NCBI GenBank assembly: GCA_903813345.2
Contig: CAIIXF020000010.1
Location: 14,879,181-14,943,180 of the forward strand
Source of the DNA: Owenia fusiformis
Taxonomy: Eukaryota; Annelida; Polychaeta; Sabellida; Oweniidae
Length of the DNA stretch: 64,000 nt
Reading direction: 5' to 3'
Shown here piece by piece: positions 1,626 through 58,900 of the stretch. Made by a program: the position numbers and the translations under genes. A model generated the notes under the pieces. The model did no database searches and was not told the origin of the DNA. It saw nothing but the letters and a program-made list of their open reading frames with translations. The number at the start of each line of letters is the position of its first letter. Within the stretch, counting starts at the first letter, position 1.

Positions 1626-2320
1626 ATCCCATCAAATGAAGTTTGGAGGGATATAGAGAACACCTCCATCCATCTGTCTGTACATCCATCTGTCCGTACA
1701 TCCATACGTCCGTCCAACCGTACGTCTGTCTGGGCGATAACTCAAATACCGCTGGCCCGATTTTGTTCATATTTTATACACATGAGCCCTATGTCAGTAG
1801 AATTAATTGCACGAAAGTTGATTTTCAAAATGGCGGCTATTTTAGTGCCGATTTTACAGTAATTTAGGTACAAATGTAAAACTACATATATTAACTATAA
1901 TATTTATCCTTTTTCAAGGTAAAAAAGTTTGATAAACACTAATAAAGGTAGAAATGTAGATATTTAGGAAACACATGGCAGCCATCTTGGAAAATGGTGG
2001 TCGTTACACACTATTTTATGATTTTTGCTATAACTTCAAAAGTAGTGGAGAGATTTTTTTCTTATAGCAGACATTTAACACGTTTTTACATTTTCCACAA
2101 TTTTACGTGTTATTTTACATTTTCCACAAAAACTCAAAAAGTAATAGAACGATTTTGTATATATTTCTAATTTGATATGTGACTACTTATAAGCATGGTA
2201 CACTGTTTATTGACAAAAAGCGGCCATTTGAAAAATGTTGTTTTATGAAGCAATTCTGTAAAGAGGGCAGCCAAGGCCGTTTGATGGGATTTGCCACGCC
2301 TTGGCGTTGCTGTTGTCTAG
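1626..2320. mobile_element. Dispersed repeat inserted in gene A 3' flank
   Basis: Against the homologous flank of gene B (9230-9260), the sequence between ...CTTTATT and TTATAAATGAAAG... is an extra ~0.69 kb here, so this is an insertion. It begins TCCCATCAAATGAAG, contains a CCATCTGTCTGTA / CCGTCCAACCGTA microsatellite-like tract (1668-1730), and ends with GTTTGATGGGATTTGCC, giving short inverted ends. A diverged relative with the same AACTCAAATACC and GGGATTTGC blocks lies in a USP2 intron near 51,690-52,040. Confidence 0.6.
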
Positions 2321-2607
2321 TTTTATAAATGAAAGCATCTTATGAATGTAAATTTTGCTTAGTTGTATATTATTGAATTCAGACAAGTATGTTTTCTAGC
2401 CCTACACTATGTTCATGTGCATATGAAAATGCAGATCTGACTATTTTGAAAGTCTATGGAATATATAATTTAAAATTCTGTCTAGTTCTCGAAAGGAAAT
2501 AACCTTCTCAAAATAATAGGTGATACATTTTGTGAGAACGTAATATGAACTATGTTCTGTTATCCAAGTCTTAGATATTGAACAACAAATATTTTGATCC
2601 TGCAAAT

Positions 2608-2613
2608 TTTATT
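2608..2613 (-). terminator. Polyadenylation signal of gene A
   Basis: AATAAA on the minus strand, about 170 nt past the gene A stop. The surrounding ~30 bp is conserved at 10,561-10,566 downstream of gene B, which supports a real 3' end signal. Confidence 0.55.
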
Positions 2614-2782
2614 CTCGAGGAACCAAAATACATAATGAACGTACATGGAGATAGAACTTTAAAATGGTCGTTTTGTAGTCTCTATAAAGGCTGTGTAAAG
2701 TATGCATTCTGAATCGAGATGTTTTTGTGTGTATGTTGGTTGGTTGACTTTTGGTTTAGGCGAGGTCATTTGATGCCGCAGT

Positions 2783-4137
2783 CTAAGCAGCCGGGGATTC
2801 TGGAATATCGTTGGTCACCCAGTATTTAATCTCCAACTTCGTCTCTCTTCTCTTTCTTGTCCGACGGAAGGTGACCAACAAACTGAAAAATATCAGTCAT
2901 CAGTATTGTGTAATGAATGAATCAAAATACGTATTTCTACTTATCTACAGTATGAATTTTGAAAAACCTCACACATATCATCAATAGAAGACTTGATATG
3001 CAGATGTATGAATAAATGGCAGTAGTCGTTTTGGTTGAGCTAGATAATCCATTACTCAAATTTTGTAGCAAAGCCTCTATTGATATTATTCTGGCTCATT
3101 TGTAATTAGCTTTTGATCATCTAGCTGTCAGATCATAAACTATATTATCATTTGTCATGTGTCATATGTCAAATTTGTGTGCATTTCATCTTGCCACAGT
3201 TGCTATATTATAAATGTATATAAATGAGTATATAAACCAAGTCTGATTAAAAAAAATATAATATATACTTATATTGAATGAGTTCCAATGGTTGACCAGC
3301 AGCATCCTTTGAAAATAAAGTCTGAATTCCAAATGCAGTAATTGTTTTACACCATCTGCACTCTGTGATATCCGTGAAATCAATTTCGCTATATACATCA
3401 GGGTCCTGATTCTTAAAGAACTCTATGATCGTGACAGCTTCTATTGATTAAATAAATAAAACATTGAATTAGTCCTTGAGTTCATTCTTCAAGACATACA
3501 TGTACAGGCAGACAAAGGATATCAAAGATTACTATGAAATCAGAATACTAGTATTGTGTTCTCTGGGAGGAAGAACGTTTAGAAACCATACTATGTAATA
3601 ATAAAGAGGCTTTAGAACATATATATTAGAACCAAAGAAATATACTTCCTATTAACTCGAAACGTTGCAGTTTACACAATTGTGCCATAATTTCTGAGAA
3701 TTTGGCGAGGAAATTGAAAAAGTAAGACATCATGAAAATAAAAACGACAGGCCTGTGTTCTCACCAGCTATTCCATTTGCACGTGGCACATCTTGTGGTG
3801 CAAAAATTACATCCCCTGTGAAAAACACTCCTAAATTCGAACAGTTGAGACGCACTGAACAGTCTGGCTCCAACAATGCTTCATTGAATGCTGTTGAAAA
3901 CTCGTCAAGTTCATCTTCAACTGAAATATTTATCATATGATGCAAATGGATGCATTTAAATTAATGAAAATATGTATCCATCCACTTTAGAGTTGGGAAT
4001 AATTTTATCAAAAACTCACCATTTCCTCTATATCCAATTCCACGAAGACGCATCAATCCTCTTCCAATTCCACGATGACCCATGATTATGGACACGTCAC
4101 TCAGGATCAGAACCGACATCACTATGAGCAGTTTCAT
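2783..4137 (-). CDS. Gene A: secreted 181-aa protein, unknown family
   Basis: Four coding exons on the minus strand: 4137-4020, 3920-3765, 3440-3269 and 2882-2783. All junctions are GT-AG and keep frame (phases 1, 1, 2). The start ATG (4135-4137) opens a signal peptide, MKLLIVMSVLILSDVSIIMG. A short Gly/Arg-rich segment follows (about residues 21-40), then an acidic start (VEDELDEF) and a domain with four cysteines at about 60, 66, 119 and 122 (the last pair CRWC), then a basic tail (FRRTRKRRETK) ending before TAG. A non-coding exon 1 probably ends at 5599 (donor gtaggg); the acceptor before the ATG exon is at 4150. Gene B has the same exon phases and lengths, which strongly supports the model. 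I do not recognise the family. A secreted or extracellular role is inferred from the signal peptide only; four Cys suggest two disulfides. Confidence 0.82.
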
Positions 4138-14200: not shown

Positions 14201-17200
14201 ACCAGTTTGTCCAGATGCAGGTGGAGCATCTTGTGGTGCAAAAATTGCATCCTCTGTGAAAAGCACTGCTAGATTTGAACAGTCGAGATCCACTGAACAT
14301 TGTGGCTCCATCAATCCTTCTTTAAATTCTCCCAATAACTCATCCAGTTCATCTCCAACTGAAATATACATTTTGAATATTTAGTTTATTGAAAGGTTTG
14401 ACAGGACTTGGGATGATCTTCTATATTAAGACACCATCAATCCATTCATTTATCATACACGATGACCACTGAATTTAAAGTGGATATTGTTTTTTCCGAT
14501 TTTTTTTACTTCAGTTTGAACTATGTGTACATCTTATACGAATATATCAGTACATCTTATTAGCATTGGACATTTTCTGAGTGCACTGTCATAGTAACAG
14601 GGACAATATTTCTATTAAAGGAGTGGTATCGATATGGTGAACTTTTTGGACATGCATTTCTCTTAAACCAGTAATCAAAACATTCTGAAAATTTTACACA
14701 TCCTCAATTTAATGGCATCTTTTGGATGGTAAGGTTATAATTTGAAATATATATAAATACTTTTTTTCTATATCATTTTAGAAAACACATCAGACACTCC
14801 TTTTGTTATTAGACTCCAGATGAAATCTGGAGTCTATTGTTTTTGCCTGTTTTCTTATTAGACTCCAGATGTCAATCTGGAGTCTATTGTTTTTGCCAGT
14901 ATTCTTCTTATTAGACTCCAGATGTCAATCTGGAGTCTATTGTTTTTGCCAGTATTCTTATTCTTCTTCTTATTAGACTCCAGATTGAAAATCTGGAGTC
15001 TATTGTTTTTGCCTGTATTCTTATTATTAGACTCCAGATGTCAATCTGGAGTCTATTGTTTTTGCCAGTATTCTTCTTCTTCTTCTTCTTCTTATTATTT
15101 TTCTTTAAGAGTTTTTTCAATAACTATAAGGTATCCAGTAAAGACCATTATACAGTTCATTTAGGTTCAGTATCTAGTTGGTGGGAAATTGGGTCAAATT
15201 TTCATCTAGGTCAAAGGTCAAGAACTAGGTCAAATCCAGTACTTTGTCACTTTTTTCGATTTTCTCGGTCGTCCTTCAATATTTTTGATCCGGTTTTTTT
15301 TCATTGTGTTCCTCATAAAAAAGTAGAAAATCTAGGGTCGATTTAGTTTTTTGGTATCTCAAACCGATTTCGAGATATCAGTGTCCGAAAACGAGGTCCA
15401 AAAAAAAGTTCTTCGAATCCAATGTCCAGGATATCAGTTTTATAGGAAATTTTCTCAGGATTCCGAATCTGAAAACAAAATTTCGATCTGACTTCCGGTG
15501 CAGAAGTTATGGCGTTTTGAAAATTCAAAAATCGCTAAATTTGGTGCCCCATGTTAATTCAATGGGAAAAAATATTTTTTTGAAGTGTAAAGTACGAGAT
15601 ATAGACTAAGCACAGCTAAACATAATGGAAGCCCATAAAAGAAAGGGACCTCAAAACCTTCTTTTCATAAAAATTTGGACACCAAAATGCCTAGGTCAAA
15701 ATCTAGGTCAAATTCAAAGTTTTCCCTTATTTTTGCGATTCTGACACTACAGATTAATTATATTCTTAGAAATTTTGTATACATGTAGCCAAGAGTGTGC
15801 TAATAGTGTTAGCCTTTTGCCGTCAGAAAGTATTTTGACCCACTTTTGAGATATGGTGTCCGAAAAGTAGGTCAAAATAAAAAATTCTCCAAAATTAACG
15901 TTTGAGTTATGAATTAAGTATAGAATTTTCTCAGGAATCCGAATCTGCAAATCAAATTTCGATCCGACTTCCGGTTAGGAAGTTATGACATTTTGAAAGC
16001 TCAAAAATCGCTAAATTTGGTGCCCCATGTTATGTCAATGGGAAAAAGGATTTTTTTGAAGTGTAAAATACGAGATATAGACTAAGTACAGCTTAAAATA
16101 ATGAAAGCCTATGCAAGAAGGGGACCTCGAAGGCTACCTAACTTCAAAATTTGGACACCAAAATCCCTAGGTCAAAATCTAGGTCAAATTCATAGTTTTT
16201 CCTTATTTTTGCGATTCTGACACTATATTTAAATGATTTGCTTCAAAATTTTGTATACAGGTAGGAAAGAGTGTGCTAATAGTGTTAGCCTTTTGCCGTC
16301 AGAAAGTATTTCGACCCACTTTTGAGATATGGTGTCCGAAAAGTAGGTCAAAATAAAAAGTTCTCAAAATTTAACATATGAGTTATGAATTAAAGGTAGA
16401 ATTTTCTCAGGAATCCGAGTCTGCAAACCAAATTTCGATCAGACTTCCGGTTCGAAAGTTATGGCGTTTTGAAATTTCGAGAAAAATCGATCTGATGGTA
16501 TCCTGATAGAAAGTCAAGAGTAGAGAAGAAAATATTGAAAAATGCATCCATCCTTCCTTTGTGAAACTATCGTATCCTTCTTATCTACCTTTCCTTCATA
16601 TCCTCTCCTTCCTATCCTTCCTATTCTATTCCTTCTTCATATTCTATTGTATCATTCTTTCCTATTATATCCTATTGTTCCTTCCTATTCTAGCCTATCC
16701 TTCCTTCCTTTTTCATCCATCCATCCATCCATCTTTTTCTGGATGACTCAGCTTATTTTGGATGACTCGGCTTATTCTGGATGACTCGGCTAAAAAAAAG
16801 TCTAGATCTGGAGTCTGAAATTGAACTTCGTTCAATTTCCAAAGTCTAGTTATTATTATTAGACTCCAGATGAAATCTGGAGTCTATTGTTTTCGTCAGT
16901 TTTCTTATTCTTATTATTCTTATTATTATTATTATTCTAACCCAGTTTTCTCAATAACCATAAGGTTTTCAGTAAAGTCAGTCATTTGGTCAATTTAGGT
17001 CCAGCATCTAGTTCCTCGGAAATCGGGTCAAATTTTTATCTAGGTCAAAGGTCAAGAACTAGGTCAAATCCAGTACTTTGTCACTTTTTTCGATTTTCTC
17101 GGTCGTCCTTCAATATTTTCGATCGGGTTTTTTTTCATTGTGTTCCTTATAAAAAAGTAGAATATCTAGGGTCGATTTAGTTTTTTGATATCTCAAACCG

Positions 17201-20200
17201 ATTTCGAGATATCAGTGTCCGAAAACGAGGTCCAAAAAAAAGTTCTCCGAATCAAATGTCCAGGATATTGGTCTTATAGGAAATTTTCTCAGAATTCCGA
17301 ATCTGAAAACGAAATTTGAATCTGATTTCCGGTTCGGAAGTTATGGCGTTTTGAAAACTCAAAAATCGCTAAATTTGGTGCCCATGTTAAGTCAATGGGA
17401 AAAAATATTTTTTTGAAGTGAAAAATACGGAATATAGACTGAGTTCAGCTTCATATAATCAAAGCCTTTAAAAGAAGGGGACCTCAAAAGCCATCTAGCT
17501 TCACAATTTGGACACCGAAATGCCTAGGTCAAAATCTAGGTCAAATTCATAGGTTTTCCTTATTTTTTCGATTCTGACACTACACTTTAATTATATTCTT
17601 CGAAATTGTGTATACATGTAGCCAAGAATATGCTAATAGTGTTAGCTTTTTGCCGTCAGAAAGTATTTTGACCCACTTTTGAGATATGGTGTCCGAAAAG
17701 TAGGTCAAAATAAAAAGTTCTCCAAATTTGACGTTTGAGTTATGAATTAAGTATAGAATTTTCTCAGGAATCCGAATCTGCAAACCAAATTTCGATCCGA
17801 CTTTCAGTTCGGAAGTTATGGCGTGTCCGAAAAGTAGGTCAAAATAAAAAATCTCCAAATTTAACGTATGAGTTATGAATTAGGGGTAGAATTTTCTCAG
17901 GAATCCGAATCTGCAAACTAAATTTCGATCCGACTTCCGGTTCGGAAGTATTAGCGTTTTGAAATTTCGAGAAAAATCGATCTGATGGTATCCTGATAGA
18001 AAGTCAAGAGTAGAGAAGAAAATATTGAAAAATTCATCCATCCTTCCTATCTCATCCTACCCTATCCTTCCTATCCTATCCTATCCTATCCTTTCTTCCT
18101 ATTCTATTCTATCCTATCCTTCTTTCTTATTCTATCCTATCGTTCTTTCCTATTCTATCCTATCCTACCTTCCTATTTTATTTATCCATCTCTTTCTAGA
18201 TGACTCAGCTTATTCTGGATGACTCGGCTTATTCTGGATGACTCGGCTAAAAAAAGTCTAGATCTGGAGTCTGAAATTGAACTTCGTTCAATTTCCAAAA
18301 TCTAGTTATTTTTCTTAGCAAGATATCTCAATAACTAGAAGACTTAGGGTAAATCTGTTTACATGGTCAGTTAGGGTATGTGACCTAGTTTCTGGGAAAT
18401 GAGGTCAATTTTTTTTCTAGGTCAAAGGTCAAAATTTAGGTCAAATCTACAAATTGTCAATTATCTTTGTTATGGTTTATTATTTTTTCTCAATTTTTTT
18501 TTCATCGTGTAGTTAAAAAGGAGCGCTTTTAAGTGAACTAATTCTTTTTATTGTAACTTTTAAGAATTTTGAGAAATTTGACTTTAAAAAAAAGTTGAAT
18601 TTTTTTAATGTTCCAAATCTATTAAAATTGGTATTAATTTAATAGGAAATTGTCTCAAGATTCTGAATCTGAAAACGAAATTGTGATCCGACTCCCGGTT
18701 CAGGAGTTAAGACATTTTGAAATTTTGAAAAAATGATTTGATGATATCCCCATGTCATGTCAATCGGACCAATATTTTTTTATTTCTCATTAATATCAAA
18801 GTTCAAATTAAGCTTTTAATAGTAAATTTTCTCAGGATTCCGAATCTGAAAACAAAATTGAGATCCAAATTCCGGTTTACAAGTTATGGGCTTTTGAAAT
18901 CTCAAAAAAATCCCACCGCTGCCACCAAATTGTAACAATCTCAACCTTTTCATTAATATCAGATCTCAAAATGGTTTTGAGATAAACAATCTAGATCTGG
19001 AGTCTTGAATTGAACTTGTTCAATTTCTCCAATCTAGTTCTTATTCTTATTATTCTTTTTGAGTTTTTTCAATAACTATAAGGTATCCAGTAAATACCAT
19101 AATACAGTTTATTTAGGTTTAGTATCTAGTTGGTGGGAAATTGGGTCAAATTTTTATCTAGGTCAAAGGTCAAGAACTAGGTCAAATCCAGTACTTTGTC
19201 ACTTTTTTCGATTTTCTCGGTCGTCCTTCAATATTTTTGATCTGGTTTTTTTTCATTGTGTTCCTCATAAAAAAGTAGAAAATCTAGGGTCGATTTAGTT
19301 TCTTGGTATCTCAAACCGATTTCGAGATATCAGTGTCCGAAAACGAGGTCCAAAAAAAAGTTCTCCGAATCCAATGTCCAGGATATGAGTCTTATAGGAG
19401 ATTTTCTCAGGATTCCGAATCTGAAAATCAAATTTCGATCTGACTTCCGGTTCAGAAGTTATGGCGTTTTGAAAATTCAAAAATCGCTAAATTTGGTGCC
19501 CCATGTTAATTCAATGGGAAAAAATATTTTTTTGAAGTGTAAAATACAAGATACAGACTAAGCACAGCTAAACATAATGGAAGCCCATAAAAGAAAGGGA
19601 CCTCAAAACCTTCTTTTCATAAAAATTTGGACACCAAAATGCCTAGGTCAAAATCTAGGTCAAATTCAAAGTTTTTCCTTATTTTTGCGATTCTGACACT
19701 ACAGATTAATTATATTCTTCGAAATTTTGTATACATGTAGCCAAGAGTGTGCTAATAGTGTTAGCCTTTTGCCGTCAGAAAGTATTTTGCCCCACTTTTG
19801 AGATATGGTGTCCGAAAAGTAGGTCAAACTAAAAAATTCTCCAAATTTAACGTTTGAGTTATGAATTAAGTATAGAATTTTCTCAGGAATCCGAATCTGC
19901 AAATCAAATTTCGATCCGACTTCTTGTTCGGAAGTTATGACATTTTGAAAGCTCAAAAATCGCTAAATTTGGTGCCCCATGTTATGTCAATGGGAAAAAA
20001 GATTTTTTTGAAGTGTAAAATTCGAGATATAGACTAAGTACAGCTTAAAATAATGAAAGCCTATGAAAGAAGGGGACCTCGAAGGCTACCTAACTTCAAA
20101 ATTTGGACACCAAAATCCCCAGGTCAAAATCTAGGTCAAATTCATAGTTTTTCCTTATTTTTGCGATTCTGACACTATGTTTAAATGATTTGCTTCAAAA

Positions 20201-23200
20201 TTTTGTATACAGGTACGAAAGAGTGTGCTTATAGTGTTAGCCTTTTGCCGTCAGAAAGTATTTCGACCCACTTTTGAGATATGGTGTCCGAAAAGTAGGT
20301 CAAAATAAAAAGTTCTCCAAATTTAACATATGAGTTATGAATTAAGGGTAGAATTTTCTCAGGAATCCGAGTCTGCAAACCAAATTTCGATCCGACTTCC
20401 GATTCGAAAGTTATGGCATTTTGAAATTTCGAGAAAAATCGATCTGATGGTATCCTGATAGAAAGTCAAGAGTAGAGAAGAAAATATTGAAAATTGCATC
20501 CATCCTTCCTTTGTGAAACTATCGTATCCTTCTTATCTACCTTTCCTTCGTATCCTCTCCTTCCTATCCTTCCTATTCTATTCCTTCTTCATATTCTATT
20601 CTATCATTCTTTCTTATTCTATCTTATCGTTCCTTCCTATTCTAGCCTATCCTTCCTTCCTTTTTCATCCATCCATCCATCTTTTCTGGATGACTCAGCT
20701 TATTTTGGATGACTCGGCTTATTCTGGATGACTCGGCTAAAAAAAGTCTAGATCTGGAGTCTGAAATTGAACTTCGTTCAATTTCCAAAGTCTAGTTATT
20801 CTTATTAGACTCCAGATGTAAATCTGGAGTCTATTACTTTTGCCAGTATTCTTCTTCTTCTTCTTCTTTATTATTATTTTTCTCTACACGTTTTCTCAAT
20901 AACTAGAAGACATTGAGTCAAGTCCTGTATATGGTCAATTCAGGTCCAGTATCTAGTTCCTCGGAAATTGGGTCAAATTTTTATCTAGGTCAAAGGTCAA
21001 GAACTAGGTCAAATCTTAAATTTTCAACCTTCTGTCTATTATCTTCGTCGTTATTTATCAAAACAACTTTGTCTTTTTTTCATCATGTAGCTTAGAAACA
21101 GCCCTTTCATAAGTGTGCCATCAGATTTTTGATTACTGTTACCGATTTTGAGATATGGCGTCCGGAAAGTAGGTCAGAACAAAAAGTTCTCCTAATTCAA
21201 CATGTGAGTTATGAAATAAGTGTAGAATGATCTCAGGAATCCGAATCTGCAAATCAAATTTGGATCGGACTTCCGGTTCGGAAGTTATGGCGTTTTGAAA
21301 GCTCAAAAATTGCTAAATTTGGTGCCCATGTTAAGTCAATGGGAAAAAAAGATTTTTTTGAAGTCAAAAATACGAAATATAGACTGAGTTCAGCTAAATA
21401 TAATGAAAGCTTTTAAAAGAATGGGACCTCAAAAGCCATCTAGCTTTAAAATTTGGACAACAAAATGCCTAGGTCAAAATCTAGGTCAAATTCAAACTTT
21501 TTCCTTATTTTTGCGATTCTGACACTACAAATTAATTATATTCTTCGAAATTTTGTATACATGTAGCCAAGAGTGTGCTAATAGTGTTAGCCTTTTGCCG
21601 TCAGAAAGTATTTTGCCCCAGTTTTGAGATATGGTGTCCGAAAAGTAGGTCAAAATAAAAGGTTCTCCAAATTTAATGTTTGAGTTATGAATTAAGAATA
21701 GAATTTTCTCAGAAATCCGAATCTGCAAACCAAATTTCGATCCGACTTCCGGTTCCGAAGTTATGGCGTGTCCAAAAAGTAGGTCAAAATAAAAATTCGC
21801 CAAATTTAACGTATGATTTATGAATAAGGGGTAGAATTTTGTCAGGAATCCAAATCTTTAAATCAAATTTAGATCCGACTTCCGGTTCGGAAGTTATGGC
21901 GTTTTGAAATTTCGGAAAATCGATCTGATGGTATCCTGATAGAAAGTCAAGAGTAGAGAAGAAAATATTGAAAAATTCATCCATCCTTCCTATCTGATCC
22001 TATCCTATCCTTCCTATCTATCCTTCCTTTGTATCCTTTCCTTCCTATCCTTTCCTATCATATCCTTTCTTCCTATTCTGTTCTATCCTATCCTTCTTTC
22101 TCATTCTATCCTATCGTTCCTTCCCATTCTATCCTATCCTACCTTCCTATTTTAAACATCCATCTTATTCTGGATGACTCAGCTTATTCTAGATGACTCG
22201 GCTTATTTTAGATGACTGGGCTTAAAAAAAAGTCTAGATCTGGAGTCTGAAATTGAACTTCGTTCAATTTCCAAAGTCTAGTTCTTATTATTCTTTAGGA
22301 GTTTTTTCAATAACTATGAGGTATCCAGTAAGGACCATAATACAGTTTATTTAGGTTCAGTATCTAGTTGGTGGGAAATTGGGTCAATTTTTTATCTAGG
22401 TCAAAGGTCAAGAACTAGGTCAAATCCAGTACTTTGTCACTTTTTTCGATTTTCTCGGTCGTCCTTCAATATTTTGGATCCGGGTTTTTTTCATTGTGTT
22501 CCTCATAAAAAAGTAGAAAATCTAGGGTCGATTTAGTTTTTTGGTATCTCAAACCGATTTCGAGATATCAGTGTCCGAAAACGAGGTCCAAAAAAAAGTT
22601 CTCCGAATCCAATGTCCAGGATATCAGTCTTATAGGAAATTTTCTCAGGATACCGAATCTGAAAACCAAATTTCGATCTGACTTCCGGTTCAGAAGTTAT
22701 GGCGTTTTGAAAATTCAAAAATCGCTAAATTTGGTGCTCCATGTTAATTCAATGGGAAAAAATATTTTTTTGAAGTGTAAAATACGAGATATAGACTAAG
22801 CACAGCTAAACATAATGGAAGCCCATAGAAGAAAGGGACCTCAAAACCTTCTTTTCATAAAAATTTGGACACCAAAATGCCTAGGTCAAAATCTAGGTCA
22901 AATTCAAAGTTTTTCCTTATTTTTGCGATTCTGACACTACAGATTAATTATATTCTTCTAAATTTTGTATACATGTAGCCAAGAGTGTGTTAATAGTGTT
23001 AGCCTTTTGCCGTCAGAAAGTATTTTGACCCACTTTTGAGATATGGTGTCCGAAAAGTAGGTCAAAATAAAAAATTCTCCAAATTTAACGTTTGAGTTAT
23101 GAATTAAGTATAGAATTTTCTCAGGAATCCGAATCTGCAAACCAAATTTCGATCCGACTTCCGGTTCGGAAGTAATGACATTTTGAAAGCTCAAAAATCG

Positions 23201-26142
23201 CTAAATTTGGTGCCCCATGTTATGTCAATGGGATAAAAGATTTTTTTGAAGTGTAAAATACGAGATATAGACTAAGTACAGCTTAAAATAATGAAAGCCT
23301 ATGAAAGAAGGGGACCTCGAAGGCTACCCAACTTCAAAATTTGGACACCAAAATCCCTAGGTCAAAATCTAGGTCAAATTCATAGTTTTTCCTTATTTTT
23401 GCGATTCTGACACTATATTTAAATGATTTGCTTCAAAATTTTGTATACAGGTAGGAAAGAGTGTGCTCATAGTGTTAGCCTTTTGCCGTCAGAAAGTATT
23501 TCGACCCACTTTTAAGATATGGTGTCCGAAAAGTAGGTCAAAAAAAAAAGTTCTCCAAATTTAACATATGAGTTATGAATTAAGGGTAGAATTTTCTCAG
23601 GAATTCGGGTCTGCAAACCAAATTTCGATCTGACTTCCGGTTCCGAAGTAATGGCGTGTCCAAAAAGTAGGTCAAAATAAAAATTCGCCAAATTTAACGT
23701 ATGAGTTATGAATTAGGGGTAGAATTTTGTCAGGAATCCGAAACTTTAAATCAAATTTAGATCCCACTTTCGGTTCGGAAGTTATGGCGTTTTGAAATTT
23801 CGGAAAATCGATCTGATGGTATCCTGATAGAAAGTCAAGAGTAGAGAAGAAAATATTGAAAAATTCATCCATCCTTCCTATCTGATCCTATCCTTCCTAT
23901 CTATCTTTCCTTCATATCCTTTCCTTCCTATCCTTCCTATCCTCTCCTATCATATCCTTTCTTCATATTCTGTTCTATCCTATTCTTCTTTCTTATTCTA
24001 TCCTATCGTTCCTCCCCATTCTATCCTATCCTACCTTCCTATTTTATCCATCCATCTTATTCTGGATGACTCAGCTTATTCTGGATGACTCGGCTTATTT
24101 TAGATGACTGGGCTTAAAAAAGTCTAGATCTGGAGTCTGAAATTGAACTTCGTTCAATTTCCAAAGTCTAGTTATTCCTCTTTTTCTTTCTTCTTCCTCC
24201 TAACACATTTTCTCTACAACTATAACATCTTACTTAAACCAACTTACATGGTTATCTAAGGAATGTTTCTGGCTTTCTGGGAAATTAGGTCAAATTTTTA
24301 TCTAGGTCAAAGGTCAAGAACTAGGTCAAATCTTACATTTTCAACATTCTTCATCATATCTTCGTCAATATTCATCGTAACTCCTTTCTCTTTTATTCAT
24401 CATGTAGCTTAGAAAAAGGCGAATCAAAGATATGACATCAGAATTTTGATTACTTTTACTGATTTTGAGATATGGCGTCCGGAAAGTAGGTAAGAACAAA
24501 AAGTTCTCCAAATTCAACATGTGAGTTATGAAATAAGTATAGAATGATCTCAGGAATCCGAATCTGCAAACCAAATTTAGATCAGACTTCCGGTTCGGAA
24601 GTTATGGCGTTTTGAAAGCTCAAAAATCGCTAAATTTGGTGCCTATGTAAAGTCAATGGGAAAAATGACTTTTTCCAAGTGTAAAATACCAGATATAAAC
24701 TGAGAACAGCTTAACATTCTGAAAGCCTATAAAAGAAGGGGACCTCGAAGGCTATCTAGCTTTAAAATTTGGACACCAAAATGCCTAGGTCAAAATCTAG
24801 GTCAAATTCATAGTTTTTTCTTATTTTTGCGATTCTGACATTACACTTTAATGATTTGCTTCGAAATTTTGTATACAGGTAGCAAAGAGTGTGCTAATAG
24901 TGTTAGTCTTTTGCCGTCAGAAAGTATTTTGACCCACTTTTGAGATATGGTGTCCAAAAAGTAGGTCAAAATAAAAAGTTCTCCAAATTTAACATATGAG
25001 CTATGGATTAAGGGTAAAATTTTCCCAGGAATCCGAATCTGCAAACCAAATTTCAATCCGACTTTCGGTTCGGAAGTTACGTCGTTTTGAAAGCTCAAAA
25101 ATCGCTAAATTTGGTGCCCCATGTTATGTCAATGAGAAAAAAGATTTTTTTGAAGTGTAAAATACCAGATATAAACTGAGTACAGCTTAACATTCTGAAA
25201 GCCTATAAAAGAAGGGGACCTCGAAGGCTATCTAGCTTTAAAATTTGGACACCAAAATGCCTAGGTCAAAATCTAGGTCAAATTCATAGTTTTTCGTTAT
25301 TTTTGCGATTCTGACATTACACTCTAATGATTTGCTTCGAAATTTTGTATACAGGTAGCAAAGAGTGTGCTTATAGTGTAAGCCTTCTGCCGTCAGAAAG
25401 TATTTTGACCCACTTTTGAGATATGGTGTCTGAAAAGTAGGTCAAAATTAAAAGTTCTCCAAATTTAACGTATGAGTTATGAATTAAGAGTAGAATTTTC
25501 TCAGGAATCAGAATCTTTAAACCAAATTTCGATCTAACTTCTGATTAGATAGTTATAGCGGTTTTAAGTCTCGAAAAGTCAATATGATGATATCCCCATG
25601 TTAAGCCAATGGAGTCGAAGATAACATTCTTAAGAGTTGTCTAAATGTCTATATTCTAGCTGACTCAGCTTATTCTAAATGACTCAGCTTACAAGTATTT
25701 GGATGACTCAGCTTAAAAAAAGTCTGAAATCTGGAGTCTTAAATTGAACTTGTTCAATTTACATGTCTAGTTATTATTGGTATCATATGTTCGGAATGAA
25801 ATTAAACATTTATCTGAACCTCATTGGAACAAAGCGACAAAAACACAACGTTTTAGGTCTCTCAATATTGTAATTGTACAAAGGAAAGTTTGGTTGATTT
25901 TAAAAAAGTACCTTGTTAATGAAATAAAAGGCATTCTACAAAATTGAACCTCCGTTTTTAATGTTTATTTAATTTATGTTAGTGTATCCATCCAACATAA
26001 GAAATAATCTCATCATGAAGAACTTACCATTTACTTTTCCCTTTTCTCTATATCTTCCTTTTCCTTTTCCTTTTCCTTTTCCAGGACTGCACATGCCAAT
26101 GTCAATCAGGATCAGCAGACACACTAATATGAGCAGTTTCAT
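11201..26142 (-). CDS. Gene B: secreted 177-aa paralogue of gene A
   Basis: Four coding exons: 26,142-26,028, 14,358-14,203, 11,928-11,757 and 11,291-11,201, all with GT-AG junctions and phases 1, 1, 2. Exons 3 and 4 are 156 and 172 nt, exactly as in gene A. The start gives a signal peptide (MKLLILVCLLILIDIGMC), then an SPGKGKGKGKG segment instead of gene A's Gly/Arg stretch, then an acidic VGDELDELL and the same four cysteines (...QCSV, LDCSN, ECRSC). It ends KLQIKYWV...SAS before TAA. Over the third exon about 33 of 53 residues match gene A. Non-coding exon 1 ends at 27,612 (donor gtaaga) and the acceptor before the ATG exon is at 26,155. Intron 2 is 11,669 bp, against 99 bp in gene A, because of transposon insertion. 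Function unknown; secreted by inference. Confidence 0.82.
12225..12300. mobile_element. Fragment of the 8403-type MITE
   Basis: GATAACGCTGGTTACCGAAA followed by CGGTTCG resembles the terminal sequence of the element at 8403-8910. Only one end is recognisable. It lies in gene B intron 3. Confidence 0.45.
12528..12668. repeat. GCAT-rich simple repeat
   Basis: Degenerate tandem TAGCA / TTATGCATAGCA / TTGCATTGCAT tract in gene B intron 3. The long minus-strand frame over it (runs of MLC and MPC) is a product of the repeat and not a gene. Confidence 0.85.
12669..14202. other. Gene B intron 3, no exon seen
   Basis: Intron sequence. Around 13,325-13,480 is a repeat with CGTCAACGTAACAAAG, GCGAGGGACTAAATATGTGA and ACACCAAACATAAAACCGCA that recurs at 37,880-38,010 near the fucosyltransferase-like gene. 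The remainder shows nothing I can support. Confidence 0.5.
14619..14810. mobile_element. Left part of a MITE split by the array
   Basis: Starts AAAGGAGTGGTATCGATATG and follows the left half of the MITE at 7629 through AAAACACATCAGACACTCCT and TTTGTTATT, where it is broken by the array. It resumes at 25,771. Confidence 0.8.
14811..15062 (+). repeat. Five tandem copies of the unit 5' end
   Basis: The terminal hairpin AGACTCCAGAT...ATCTGGAGTCTATTG plus TTTTTGCC(A/T)GTATTC recurs with starts at 14,811, 14,860, 14,913, 14,975 and 15,029 before the body of unit 1 begins. Copies also start units 2 (16,861) and 5 (20,807). Units 3, 4, 6 and 7 lack it. Confidence 0.85.
15208..15232 (+). promoter_or_regulatory. 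Nuclear-receptor-like DR1 site, repeated in every unit
   Basis: AGGTCAAAGGTCA at 15,208-15,220 is a perfect direct repeat with one-base spacing (DR1), followed six bases later by a third AGGTCA. The same DR1 occurs at 17,042, 18,419, 19,160, 20,987, 22,398 and 24,304, one per unit. A second form, AGGTCAAAATCTAGGTCA (six-base spacing), occurs about ten times, for example near 15,693, 16,166, 19,646, 22,881 and 25,261. DR1 is the established site for RXR, HNF4 and COUP-TF type receptors. Binding here is untested. Confidence 0.6.
16540..16740 (+). repeat. TATCC/TTCC pyrimidine tract of unit 1
   Basis: Degenerate CCTATCCTTCCTATTCTAT-type tract ending in CCATCCATCCATCC. Equivalent tracts lie at about 18,037-18,190, 20,495-20,690, 21,975-22,160 and 23,865-24,055. 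The serine/leucine/proline-rich open frames over these tracts come from the repeat, not from genes. Confidence 0.8.
25771..25940. mobile_element. Right part of the MITE split by the array
   Basis: Resumes TTATTATTGGTATCATATG, matching 7825-7980 (GAACCTC...GGAAC, AGGTCTCTCAATATTG, GGAAAGTTTGGTTGATTTT). The copy then stops near 25,940, so its far half is missing. TTATT occurs on both sides of the array and may be the insertion-site sequence. Confidence 0.8.
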
Positions 26143-38784: not shown

Positions 38785-40873
38785 CATACTTGCCAACCTA
38801 AGACCAAAATTTTGCGGTAGATTTTTTTAAAATTGCTGTATTTTTGCGGTAGATTTTTTCAAAATGCGGTAGATTTTGCGGTATTTTTCAACAAAAATGC
38901 GGTAGTTTTTGCGGTAGGTTTTAAAAAAAAAAGGTAGTTTTTACGGTAGATTTTAAAAAAACGGTCGTTTTTGCGGTAAATTAAAAAAAAACGGTAGTTT
39001 TTGCGGTAGATTTTTAAAAAATACTGTAGTTTCAGAGGTTTGGGGTAGATTTTTGAAAAGAGTGTAATTTTGCGGTAGAAATTTTTAAAAAGCGGTAGTT
39101 TTACAGAAGATTTAGAAAAAATGCGGTAGTTTTACGGTAGATTGTTAAAAATACGGTAGTATTTCCGGTAGTTTTTTGAAAAATCTGTAGTTTTGCGGAA
39201 GATTCTGAAAAATGCGGTAGTTTTACGATAGATTTTGAAAAAATGCGGTAGTTTTACGGTAGTTTTTTGAAAAAACGGTAGTTTTGTGGAAGATTTTGAA
39301 AAAATGCTGTAGTTTAACGGTAGATTTCGAAAAATGCGGTAGTTTTTACGGTAATTTTTTGAAAAACCGGTACTTTTGCGGAAGATTTGCAAAAGATGCG
39401 GTACTTTTACGGTAGATTTTGAAAAAATGCGGTAGTTTTTGCGGTAGATTTTTAAAAAACTAGTTTTGCGGAAAAATTTGAAAAAATGCAGTAGTCCTGC
39501 GGTAGATTTTGTAAAAATGCGGTAGTTTTTGCGATAGATTTCTAAAAAACTAATGAATAAAACAGTATGTTTACCCTGTTATCACACCAAACTAGTTCTC
39601 ACTACGTTCTCGAAAACGGGCTTAAACTGTGCACGAACGGATTTGACGTAGTAAGAACCCACTAAGAACCGTTTGGGATCTGTTACAAACTTCATGAAAC
39701 TACTCGAACGAGTAGGTCCTCCAGAACTTAGAGCATGCTCAAAATTTTCTGGTGATCGTTACGTTCTGCAATCAGCACGAGTGATAACGTACTAAGACGA
39801 CCTGGACGCACTGGGGACACACTACGAACGGAAGTGTCGTACTTCAATCCTACTAGGGACGTATTACGACGTTGTGTAGTCAGGCGTAAATTGCAGACGT
39901 GAGTACCCCAATCTAGTCCGTTTGTAGCTCGTTCATTCTGTTCGTAGACAGACCCAACTCGACAAAATAAAAATAAATGCGTTCTGCACGGATTAGGGAC
40001 ACGATGTTTACTATTTTAGAACGAGTTCAACCGTAGGGAAATTTGGTGGATAATTCAGTAACATATTAGGACGTATTGAGAACGGGGTACAACTAATTGT
40101 CAACTGGTTCAAACTGATTAAGGACGTAATTGAACTGCTTGGTTACGTTGTGTAGACCAGACGAACGCACAATTTAACCCGATCTAAACTTGATACCAAC
40201 GTACTGCAGACGGAATAAAGACGACATGAACGTATTAAAAACTGCTTATGAACGAATTAACAAAAATAGCTATCACACCAGAACCAGTTGTCACTGTGTT
40301 CTGCAAAACGTTGCCGAATCGGTTTTAACTGTGTGCGAACTGAATGAACGTAGCTACAACGTTCTACGGTCTGTTTACGAACTTCATGGACTTTCCCGGA
40401 CGGGGAATGTGATTTAGAATTTTGAATCGATTCAATATCCTGCCGATACCTTATATTCGGTTTGGTAAAGGAATATTACAGGGACAGTACAGAAAGACTT
40501 CAATTTTAAGCATTTCCAAACAAAAACGGGAGATTTTACGGTAGTTTGAACAAAAATACTGTTGATTTTAGCAGAAATACGGTAGATTTTCAAAAATTTA
40601 CGGTAGATTTTCAAAAATTTACGGTAGATTTTCAAAAATTTACGGTAGATTTTCAAAAATTTACGGTAGATTTTACGGCCGTTCTCATGGAAAAAAACGA
40701 GTTTTTAAAAAAAAAAATTACGGTAGATTTCGGAAAAAATACGGTAGATTTTTTTACGGGTGTTTTTACGGGAAAAAAATGGCATTTTCTTATGGTAGTT
40801 TGTCATTTTTTTTACGGAAAAACGAAAAATTTACGGTAGATTCCCGTAAAAATACGGTAGGTTGGCAGGTATG
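38785..40873. mobile_element. 2.1-kb TIR element with minisatellite arms
   Basis: Ends CATACTTGCCAACCT and AGGTTGGCAGGTATG (inverse, one mismatch), flanked by GTATT at 38,780-38,784 and 40,874-40,878, a probable 5-bp target duplication. The left arm (38,810-39,550) is a degenerate minisatellite of GCGGTAGTTTT / GCGGTAGATTTTGAAAAA. The right arm (40,520-40,870) has TACGGTAGATTTTCAAAAAT, with about four perfect copies at a ~23-bp period near 40,580-40,670. The centre (39,580-40,430) is a more GC-rich, degenerate GAACG/ACGTA-rich sequence in which TATCACACCA...AACTTCATG occurs twice. No transposase frame was seen. Confidence 0.7.
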
Positions 40874-55900: not shown

Positions 55901-58900
55901 ATTCAAGTTATTTTTTCCTATACATACTTAATCAGGTGGACTACAGTCTAGATCACCACTTCAGTGTTATGTCTGTGGCTTAGATAACTCGACAACAGCT
56001 TTCATTTGTCACAAGCAAACGTGGTAACATATATTGTTATGATCTCCAACATTTTTGTGGACAATGTTCGGTAGTTGGTGTCTGACAGTTGGTATTTGAT
56101 GTCTGTAACAAATGGCAGTTGGTGACATTTTGCATGTTAATGCCTTTGATATTTTTTTGTTTCAGTCAACAAGATGCCCAGGAGTTACTAATATATGTGT
56201 TGGAGGGGCTACATCAGGATGTCAACAGGGTAACTACCAAGGTGAAGCGTGAGATCATTGATGACAAGCAGCTAGAGGGACTGAACACTTATGAGCAATC
56301 TCGCCTTTATTGGAGGAATTATACCAAAGTTGATGACAGCTTCATTGTAGGTGAGTGAAATAAGGAAAAATAGAGGTTAATAGACCTTCCCAATAAACAT
56401 TGCCCACTTTTGGTACATCAAAGAAGCTATGATATATAGGCTAGGTTGATTGTGTCATTCAAAGAATCAAGCCCAGCAGTTCACCGTTTTGTTTTCAAGT
56501 CCAGAATAATGTGAGCCTCTGGAAGAACTGAGTTGATTAATTGCCTACATTTGAGACACAGCATCTTAAATCTTAACATAAGCATTTACTTGACTCCCAA
56601 ACTCAAAGAACCCAAATAGGTATACATGTTTTAATATCAAAAATTAATTTTATTTTTATATACATTAAAAATATGGTAATTACTTGAAATAAAATGAGAG
56701 ATCAATTATGTTTATCATACAATATTATTGTGAATATTGTCGGACTTTGTACAGACGAAGGGTAATTTGTGTCAACAACTATATTACAAGTGGGTGACGT
56801 ATGACAGGTATACGTCGCTGTGAAATCACAAGACGTAACAAAATGGCTTAAGTCCCTTCAACTCCTTTGCATAACATAAAAACTAAAGATTTTGGTAGTG
56901 TGTCTATTCCATTTATTCTTACAAATCAATATAAAGTTCTAAACTCCACTGAATGAGCGCGATCCTCAATAAAATCTCAAAGAGTCCAATAATTACAAAA
57001 TTACAAGTAGTCCCAAAAAGTCTCAGTGATCTCGGAGCTTATGTTTCTTAAAGATCAAAGGAATGCTTAAATCCAAACTGATCACAATTGTCTCAATCTC
57101 AACTACTCTCAAGTATCGAAAATGCTGATCCCGATCCTTCTTCAGGATCTTAAATCAGGCACAAAATTCAAAAAGTCTCTATATCAAAAGTCTGATCAAA
57201 TAGTCTTCTAATCTCAATGATCTTGGGAATCAAAGACTTAATCCCATAAAACTTATCAGTTACATCTTCAAAATATCTAATCTCTACTCTATTATAATGT
57301 CGTTAGTACCTCCAAATGACCCTTCTTCAGGATCACGAGCTAACTATTTGCAACACAGTTTATTCCCTTATAATACATGCCATCTACATAAAGTTAGTCC
57401 CTCCGAATGACCTTTATTCAGGATCACGAGCTAACAATTTACATCTACATAAAGTTAGTCCCTCCATATGACCTTTATTCAGGATCACGAGCTAACAATT
57501 TACATCTACATAAAGTTAGTCCCTCCATATGACCTTTATTCAGGATCACGAGCTAACAATTTACATCTACATAAAGTTAGTCCCTCCAAATGACCCTTCT
57601 TCAGGATCACGAGCTAACAATTCACATCTACATAAAGTTAGTCCCTCCAAATGACCCTTCTTCAGGATCACGAGCTAACTCAACCTCATTGGTGATATTT
57701 AAATGGACAATAAACTCATGAAATATCAGTGGAACTGTTTCACTTACGTTTTTGTGTAAATACTCGAGCGCCGGTAATTCAAATTCACTCTGAAGTTTCT
57801 TCAATGTAATGTCGCAATTAAATTATCATTGATGTCTCCATTATGTCTCCAAAAACGGTCATTAAAGTTGAATTTCTTCGGGACAAAATTCAACACAGCC
57901 CCGCCATTGATGAATATTGAAAAACATGGCGTCTAGGGGTTTACAAATTGTAAATCACGGCAAAACTTTCCCCTAAACTCCCGCCAAAAACATGAAATTG
58001 ATCATAAGTTATATTGCCCCTTTTACTTGAAATGGGATTGGAAATCCAGGCTAATGCATAATAAACACACTGAATTTATATAAAAACTACTTTAATTAAA
58101 GTTTACATTAAAATATGAAAGAGTAATTAACTTGACCTAAGTTTTACTACGTTCGTAAATTTACAGATGGCTGCCGTAAGCAGAAAATGTTTTCAAAAGA
58201 TGCGTCAGGAATATACAAAATCTACACTCTACCTTTAAATTATAAACGCATCATGGTAATCTCTGGATTATAACAATTGATACTGTGATAAACATAACAT
58301 GTAATTTACCTTTACAGTGGTAGCAAATCCTGTCCAAAATTGAGAAAAATTATGTGGTCGATCACTTCCAGACGACACAAGTATAACGCGCATCTATTTT
58401 GCGCATGACGGGTTACTATGCAACTCAGCGCCCTTACATAAAATTACAAAGTTGACATGCACTACTCCACCAGTGAAAACTATGACATGGCATATATTTA
58501 ATTTTCCCACAATATATTGTTCATTAAATGGTCCATTGATTATAAGATCTTGAAAAAACTCCAATAGCAGGTGAAAGATTAAAACTTGTAAACCTGACAA
58601 TATTTAGCAATGCAAGCCATACCAATGATAGATGTAGATGTAAAAGAGAGGGTGTAAAAGATCTGGTAATAACATCGGAATAACTACATCTTTATTGTGT
58701 GTTCCAGATACGTTTGTAGGCCAATTGCGGAGTACTCTAAGATGTACAGAATGTGAACATAAATCTCTAACATTTGATCCTTTCTGGGAGCTATCTGTGC
58801 CATTACCAAAGGTAGGTGACCCATATACATACTTGTTTTGTATTGATACACTTGGATTAATGATACTGAAATTGAATATTTTGTTGTGACTGGCATTTGG

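Follow-up and report, generated by a model that had tools for sequence, protein, structure and literature searches.

Seven elements of one family in the window

The stretch of DNA that we analysed (the window; C10:14879181-14943180, 64,000 nucleotides) comes from an Owenia fusiformis genome assembly of 498 Mb in 525 contigs. Positions 14811-25772 of the window belong to one transposon family with seven 5' ends and seven 3' ends, all on the + strand (Table 1). The 5' end, or head (H), consists of a palindrome, AGACTCCAGAT-loop-ATCTGGAGTCT, followed by a spacer, ATTG(T/C)TTT..TTC (ATTAC.. in the head at 20807), and a (TTA/TTC)n tract. The 3' end, or tail (T), runs from ATCTGGAGTCT through a linker and a hairpin, AATTGAAC..GTTCAATT, to TCTAG, which is followed by TT; the TCTAG words end at 16849, 18305, 19037, 20795, 22281, 24171 and 25770. 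The word AGACTCCAGAT occurs 21 times on both strands together, against 0.04 expected.

Table 1. Elements E1 to E7 and two example ends, in window positions
Feature	Position	Strand	Basis or remark
E1 (outermost), 5' end: hairpin, spacer, first part of tract	14811..14858	+	bracket partner of tail at 25770
E1, headless body and 3' end	24174..25772	+	profile-model ends; bracket partner of head at 14811
E2, 5' end	14860..14911	+	bracket partner of body 22284-24173
E2, headless body and 3' end	22284..24173	+	last 517 bp resemble E7
E3, 5' end	14913..14973	+	bracket partner of body 19040-20797
E3, headless body and 3' end	19040..20797	+	bracket partner of head at 14913
E4, 5' end	14975..15027	+	bracket partner only; spacer type absent from training set
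E4, headless body and 3' end (short, diverged unit 3)	18308..19039	+	bracket partner of head at 14975
E5, uninterrupted, within E4 tract	15029..16851	+	own head and tail
E6, uninterrupted, second insertion within E4 tract	16861..18307	+	own head and tail
E7, uninterrupted, second insertion within E2 tract	20807..22283	+	own head and tail
Example palindromic 5' repeat, 11-bp arms	14811..14835	+	-10 kcal/mol as DNA, z -5.8
Example 3' end: subterminal repeat, hairpin, TCTAGTT	16806..16851	+	motif match and folding

An earlier note, made from the letters of the window alone, had described this stretch as seven Helentron-like units in tandem, each with a 5' hairpin, a pyrimidine tract and a 3' hairpin, and each tail joined to the next head. 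The seven tails (ATCTGGAGTCT, hairpin, TCTAGTT) are all there and end at the bases given in Table 1; the hairpin has its exact form five times on the + strand, and units 3 and 7 carry a shortened form. The 5' hairpin proved not to be a feature of every unit. It stands only at unit 1 (five times over), unit 2 and unit 5, whereas units 3, 4, 6 and 7 are headless, beginning within a TTATT/TTCTT tract right after the preceding tail and continuing into the body. Only two of the six internal junctions (16851/16861 and 20797/20807) run from tail to head as described, and the other four run from a tail into a headless body. The pyrimidine tract is real but is two tracts, one of TTATT/TTCTT behind the 5' hairpin and a separate ATCCT-rich one near the 3' end.

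The close likeness reported for units 1, 4 and 6 was confirmed (aligned-column identity 97.1 for U1/U4, 96.0 for U1/U6 and 95.9 for U4/U6), as was the divergence of unit 3 (58-62 against every other unit) and unit 7 (76-83 against all except U3). Unit 6 (22284-24173) is a mosaic: over the first ~1.37 kb its likeness to U1/U4 is 97 per cent, but its last 517 bp is 93.9 per cent like U5 and just 85-87 per cent like U1/U4. The mosaic is most readily read as recombination between copies, and the likeness of U1, U4 and U6 as membership of a shared subfamily; a body start similar to theirs (98.2 per cent) is found in a 54-kb array on contig C1. The bodies also contain an internal repeat of 476 bp, present in one or two copies in each unit except unit 3 (15448-16474, 19401-20426 and 22638-25541); units 2, 5 and 6 further share a repeat of 133 bp. 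Elsewhere in the window lie three unrelated tandem repeats, at 38810-39550 (units of ~31/92 bp, GCGGTA motifs), 40578-40674 (21-bp unit, 4.6 copies, 100 per cent matches) and 57381-57679 (61-bp unit, 4.9 copies, 97 per cent matches).

The architecture bears out the assignment to non-autonomous Helentron-type elements (HINEs): a palindromic 5' repeat, a complementary 3' subterminal repeat, a 3' hairpin, a tract and a TT target. The elements open with AGACTCCAGAT..ATCTGGAGTCT, and the complement ATCTGGAGTCT starts 44 bp from the TCTAG end; the 3' hairpin ends 12 bp short of it (z -3.5), and both palindromes are computed to fold well as single-stranded DNA. Scanning the array for ATG, GTG or TTG frames revealed no coding capacity, the longest frame being 102 aa. 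Insertion is at TT in T-rich sequence, without a longer target duplication (one insertion, 40 empty sites). A canonical Helitron, with 5' TC, 3' CTRR and insertion between A and T, was rejected: these elements start with AGACTCC behind TT and insert at TT, though they do end in CTAG. A search of a plasmid collection with one 3' end gave no match.

The earlier note had named ends that fail to coincide elsewhere in the genome as evidence against its reading, and in the loci read this did not occur: 10 of 14 loci on C1 taken as isolated consist of one head, one body and one tail and run from AGACTCCAGAT to TCTAG(TT), with TT before AGACTCC and TT after TCTAG. The other four are L004, with two heads and one tail; L006, a partial head followed by a piece of a second family; and L003 and L007, both headless within the stretch, with two exact heads just past L007. 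The empty sites that the note had asked for were found for one isolated copy, whose joined flanks of 121 nt match 40 paralogous places full-length at 119 nt each (40 of 1,304 candidates scored). The net gain on insertion is two bases; we take these to be one TT, which is either a duplication or the element's own. For one array, no empty site appeared among the 40 scored of 434 candidates, and the left flank matched nothing beyond the common repeat on the right.

Bracket pairing of heads and tails

With each head treated as an opening bracket and each tail as a closing one, the window spells HHHHHTHTTTHTTT, which is balanced at 7/7 and never falls below zero. Pairing the brackets gives E1[E2[E3[E4[E5][E6]]][E7]]. 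We propose that a new copy lands in the (TTA/TTC)n tract which, in a resident copy, follows immediately on the 5' hairpin. Such an insertion would split the resident, leaving its old 5' end on the left and its headless body on the right with the newcomer between them. With every such split, heads would pile up at the left of the array while headless bodies gathered at its right, in the manner of brackets. We therefore read the 11-kb stretch as a nest of seven HINEs of one family, formed by serial insertion behind resident 5' hairpins, and put the probability of this reading at about 0.93. The evidence lies in the bracket structure, the agreement in subtype between paired ends, tracts cut in two, one empty site that shows a gain of one TT on insertion, and the recurrence of the pattern in other arrays and in a second family.

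Seven further C1 arrays were read from end to end, with heads and tails called by profile models at a score of at least 12 bits. Together with the window and two arrays described below, this makes ten. The sample was a selected one: the C1 arrays were drawn from the first 100 ends listed for that contig, and the two described below were chosen for list-predicted balance. Six of the ten are balanced (the window at 7/7, and others at 24/24, 4/4, 3/3, 8/8 and 2/2), two of them reading HHHHTTTT and HHHTTT. The other four are not: HHHHTTTTTTTT (4H/8T), HHTTTT (2H/4T), HHHTTTT (3H/4T) and HHHTHTT (4H/3T). Counted by exact ends only, C1 up to 24.65 Mb (minus the 54-kb array) has 16 multi-copy clusters; 6 of them are balanced, one as HTHT. 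These unbalanced arrays and clusters imply that head clusters must also lose and gain heads. In all, the ten arrays hold 61 heads, 67 tails and 23 adjacent pairs, which leaves 38 surplus heads and 44 headless bodies.

The largest array (C1:22589500-22643700, 54 kb) has 24 heads and 24 tails. An additional tail in it has been disrupted by a deletion of 43 bp lying between two GTCTAG words, and two of its members are separated by ~10 kb of another sequence (C1:22612752-22622790), which opens with the palindrome GATTTTTGCTTT..AAAAGCAAAAATC, carries related GGTCAAA motifs, has no frame of 150 aa in the portion L031 and is perhaps a third family. This foreign insert may hide ends, and with the broken tail it makes the 24/24 balance partly luck and not to be over-read. 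More generally, balance alone is weak evidence, since a plain tandem array balances too; the weight rests on the headless bodies, the stacked heads and the matching of subtypes.

We assigned heads to types by their spacers and tails by their linkers (GAA, or TTAA/TTGA). Adjacent head-tail pairs, which are paired alike under any model, served as the training set that defines the type rule, and agreed in 31 of 31 cases. Among non-adjacent bracket pairs, 24 of 26 testable ones agree in type, with 5 more carrying untrained spacers; both mismatches fall in the 54-kb array. Shuffling heads among headless bodies within each array gave a mean of 16.8 agreements against the 24 observed (p 0.0012), and first-in-first-out pairing gave 16, the test being informative only where an array has mixed types. 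The spacer type of the window's E1 head goes with TTAA-type tails in all three of its training pairs. Matching by hairpin loop from exact-match lists alone gave 9 agreements in 12; one loop, TGAAA, is shared by the two tail types (4 and 11 training pairs), which makes loops a weaker guide to partners than spacers. Inner copies would be expected to be the younger ones, but an age test by divergence from the subfamily consensus, a crude measure that mixes subfamily age with sampling, did not show this: inner copies were younger in 11 pairs, older in 16 and tied in 1 (n=28).

A prediction was also written down from the exact-end lists before fetching: that C1:3413900-3430700 would read HHHTHHHHTTTTTHTT and C1:3458500-3463100 HHTT, together with the partner types. 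Both words were confirmed on fetching (the second array from 3458600), at 8/8 and 2/2. The two arrays contain six non-adjacent pairs, and all five with trained spacers agree in type. As the lists already contained hairpin loops and tail linkers, what was new on fetching was the spacer types, the lack of further mutated ends and the body junctions.

The earlier note had taken the array as rolling-circle read-through, which predicts repeated head-body-tail units with near-identical neighbours. This is not what we found, and read-through is not supported: four of the seven units are headless, the heads are stacked at one end of the array, and a body resembles its neighbours no more than it does other members of its array. 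A tandem produced by read-through or unequal crossing-over could still be rescued if heads were later lost from some units and multiplied before one by slippage. Head clusters are indeed short tandem repeats with a period of about 53, in 7 of 37 cases two neighbouring heads show no difference over 40 nt, and the two heads and one tail of L004 would fit. Slippage explains at most those 7, however, as the other 30 pairs differ within 40 nt, and a tandem predicts neither near-equal numbers of lost and gained heads nor the subtype matching of bracket partners nor the outcome of the written prediction. Consecutive bodies are 0.738 alike (49 pairs) and non-consecutive ones 0.752 (300 pairs), and the nearest relative lies in the same array for 14 of 68 bodies against 13.4 when shuffled (p 0.47; eight arrays plus isolated loci, the two later arrays being excluded), a result that likewise gives no support to local hopping from a source copy in the same array. 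Subtype matching and array relatedness thus largely refute a tandem origin, which we consider very unlikely. Still more improbable is integration of circular copies by homologous crossing-over at the shared tract (Campbell type). The 399 tail-to-head junctions counted genome-wide are compatible with it, as they are with side-by-side insertions, but it yields head-tail-head-tail with exchanged heads and not HHTT; head-to-head junctions are three times commoner than tail-to-head ones, and the adjacent head-tail pairs of the training set do not show exchanged types.

Landing tract, second family and transposition machinery

Consistent with serial nesting, the 32 bracket-paired split parents inspected, out of the 37 non-adjacent pairs in the ten arrays, are cut within the tract between spacer and body, with TT on each side. 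In one array, two copies that are 99.1 per cent alike over their first ~340 bp differ by the presence of a 4.2-kb insertion in one of them. The habit is widespread. The whole genome contains 2,567 exact 5' ends and 2,824 exact 3' ends, along with 1,276 head-to-head junctions (a head, then another head start within 14-44 bp) and 399 tail-to-head junctions (TCTAGTT, then a head start within 30 bp). Together the junctions amount to about two thirds of the exact-head number, although the junction patterns are shorter than the exact-head pattern and are not strict subsets of exact heads.

A preference for T-rich tracts, together with shelter from selection inside a dispensable element, may drive the nesting. 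Yet the site TTATTATT occurs 114,708 times in the genome, and the elements' own tracts make up an estimated ~6 per cent of these sites (at 2.7 sites per intact tract). Of 60 long (TTA)n loci on C1:0-19.9 Mb, 18 belong to the elements themselves, and among the 42 others just 1 has an exact head directly behind it. Set against the junction share, these figures indicate that tract preference alone may not suffice, and selection against insertions elsewhere, or docking at resident ends, could add to it. In docking, which would supplement the nest reading and is not its opposite, what the transposition complex recognises is the 5' hairpin of a resident copy, next to which the new copy then goes in, and a mere liking for T-rich tracts would not be enough. 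The single hit among 42 foreign tracts, compared with 1,276 head-to-head junctions per 2,567 exact heads, and the small share of own tracts among available sites both speak for docking; selection may nevertheless remove insertions elsewhere, and the site share is an estimate, so we regard docking as possible but somewhat doubtful.

The landing tract is not reserved for one family. One of the 32 split parents also holds, in the same tract, an element of a second family (L043, minus strand 2252-3790; C1:3428449 to about 3426911), whose head is AGAATGCCG..CGGCATTCTATAGTTTTCGCC and whose tail is AACGGCATTCTACGAAATCGCC..GGCGATTTTAAATGTCTAG. Docking, if there is any, is therefore not family-specific. 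Genome-wide the second family has 59 exact heads and 64 exact tails. Clustering at 30 kb gives 12 clusters with more than two ends, one HHHTTT, two HHTT and nine unbalanced; the remaining clusters are 27 plain HT, 12 lone tails and 6 lone heads. Tentatively, then, the tract behind the 5' hairpin might be a functional landing pad, with resident 5' ends attracting Helentron complexes of more than one family. Were this so, new copies would be stored in old ones as same-strand nests that mimic satellites, with the order of insertion kept in the bracket words.

The insertions themselves would be rolling-circle events in trans, carried out by a Rep/helicase/endonuclease. The earlier note had suggested looking for an autonomous Rep/helicase copy with the same ends; at 8 of 58 PF14214 places, picked to span the score groups and with their 5' sides read partly or not at all, the 3' flanks contained no such tail. 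Three sampled places carry Helitron_like_N, DUF6570 and a PIF1 helicase (on C5 in two overlapping frames), and two of these three also carry an endonuclease domain, so the genome does possess machinery of the Helentron type. Contigs C13, C505, C515, C158 and others with numbers from 13 upwards carry many of the 58 Rep matches, with open frames of about 2,000-3,300 aa and up to seven matches on a single contig (C13).

For the second family there is a candidate partner. On C12, a head at 19506444 and a tail at 19533986 lie on the same strand with no other exact end of that family between them, and the 27.5 kb so delimited (C12:19506444-19534018) encloses the sole PF14214 match among those listed on C12, which lies at 19514795 on the opposite (minus) strand and has an open frame of 3,164 aa. 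In the last 464 aa of this gene there is a Pif1 2B domain, and two endonuclease matches there fall short of the cut-off. About the last 200 bp up to the tail are 98 per cent like the small second-family element, and the preceding 1.8 kb gave no match. Judged by these ends and domains, the 27.5-kb element, of which ~19.5 kb of the interior is unread, is an unproven candidate for the autonomous Helentron partner of the second family. Another long head-tail distance of that family, C11:30581783 to 30607179, contains no listed Rep match.

Comparison with known systems

The structure in the window is genuine and well formed, though its tandem reading was mistaken; the kind of element is known, and its habit is uncommon and well supported. 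Tandem Helitron arrays are often taken as missed termination, and tandem-looking arrays here are ordered nests, so the relative order of insertion can be read from sequence alone. Helentron target choice thereby becomes testable, and repeat annotation that calls such arrays satellites or read-through products needs re-examination. The nests also suggest how an element might spare its host some harm, namely by taking its own copies as targets.

Our comparison draws on excerpts of the papers cited. HINE/DINE-1-like elements (Thomas, Vadnagara and Pritham 2014, PMC4067079) have the same palindromic subterminal repeats, with a complementary repeat and a palindrome near the 3' end, and the same T-rich target, TT flanking the element on either side; some copies carry microsatellites or tandem repeats, and copies outnumber coding elements. 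There, HINE structure and TT preference are described and tandem arrays are related to bypassed termination; clusters are ascribed to missed termination or neighbouring insertions, whereas in Owenia they are nests, and the tract in which copies land is fixed. In the Pacific oyster, Cg_HINE (PMC7492417) shares a left module with a repeat, a complementary repeat and a microsatellite, a right module with a repeat and a palindrome, and longer internal repeats; nesting of copies in the microsatellite is not mentioned in the excerpt. DINE1-like Helitrons of Calliphora vicina (PMC3630058) likewise have subTIRs, a microsatellite and a 3' hairpin, but 11 of 322 repeats (3.4 per cent) were nested in other elements there, with all classes pooled.

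Nesting within one family is known from retrotransposons, which use another mechanism. Zepp LINEs of Coccomyxa (PMC3446292) nest into clusters, reported as one per chromosome, and autoinserted plant LTR elements (PMC6911290) form same-family nests with a positional preference. In the open-licence PMC literature searched, in so far as the excerpts tell, we found no account of Helentron nests this deep at a fixed tract.

A further parallel is FoHeli of Fusarium oxysporum, of the Helitron2 type (PMC5148889), which has end hairpins and asymmetric inverted repeats as here. That paper proposes self-insertion as the origin both of nested elements and of those in which several 5' ends go with a single 3' end, and by analogy the isolated HHT copies in Owenia could be transposed composites of the same sort. 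The excerpt gives one nested example and a number of multi-5'-end elements; the Owenia figures are about 2,600 exact heads and 1,276 head-to-head junctions, with arrays of up to 24/24 ends and a fixed site. Helitron self-insertion is already known; for the depth and the fixed site of the Owenia nests we found no counterpart in the literature searched.
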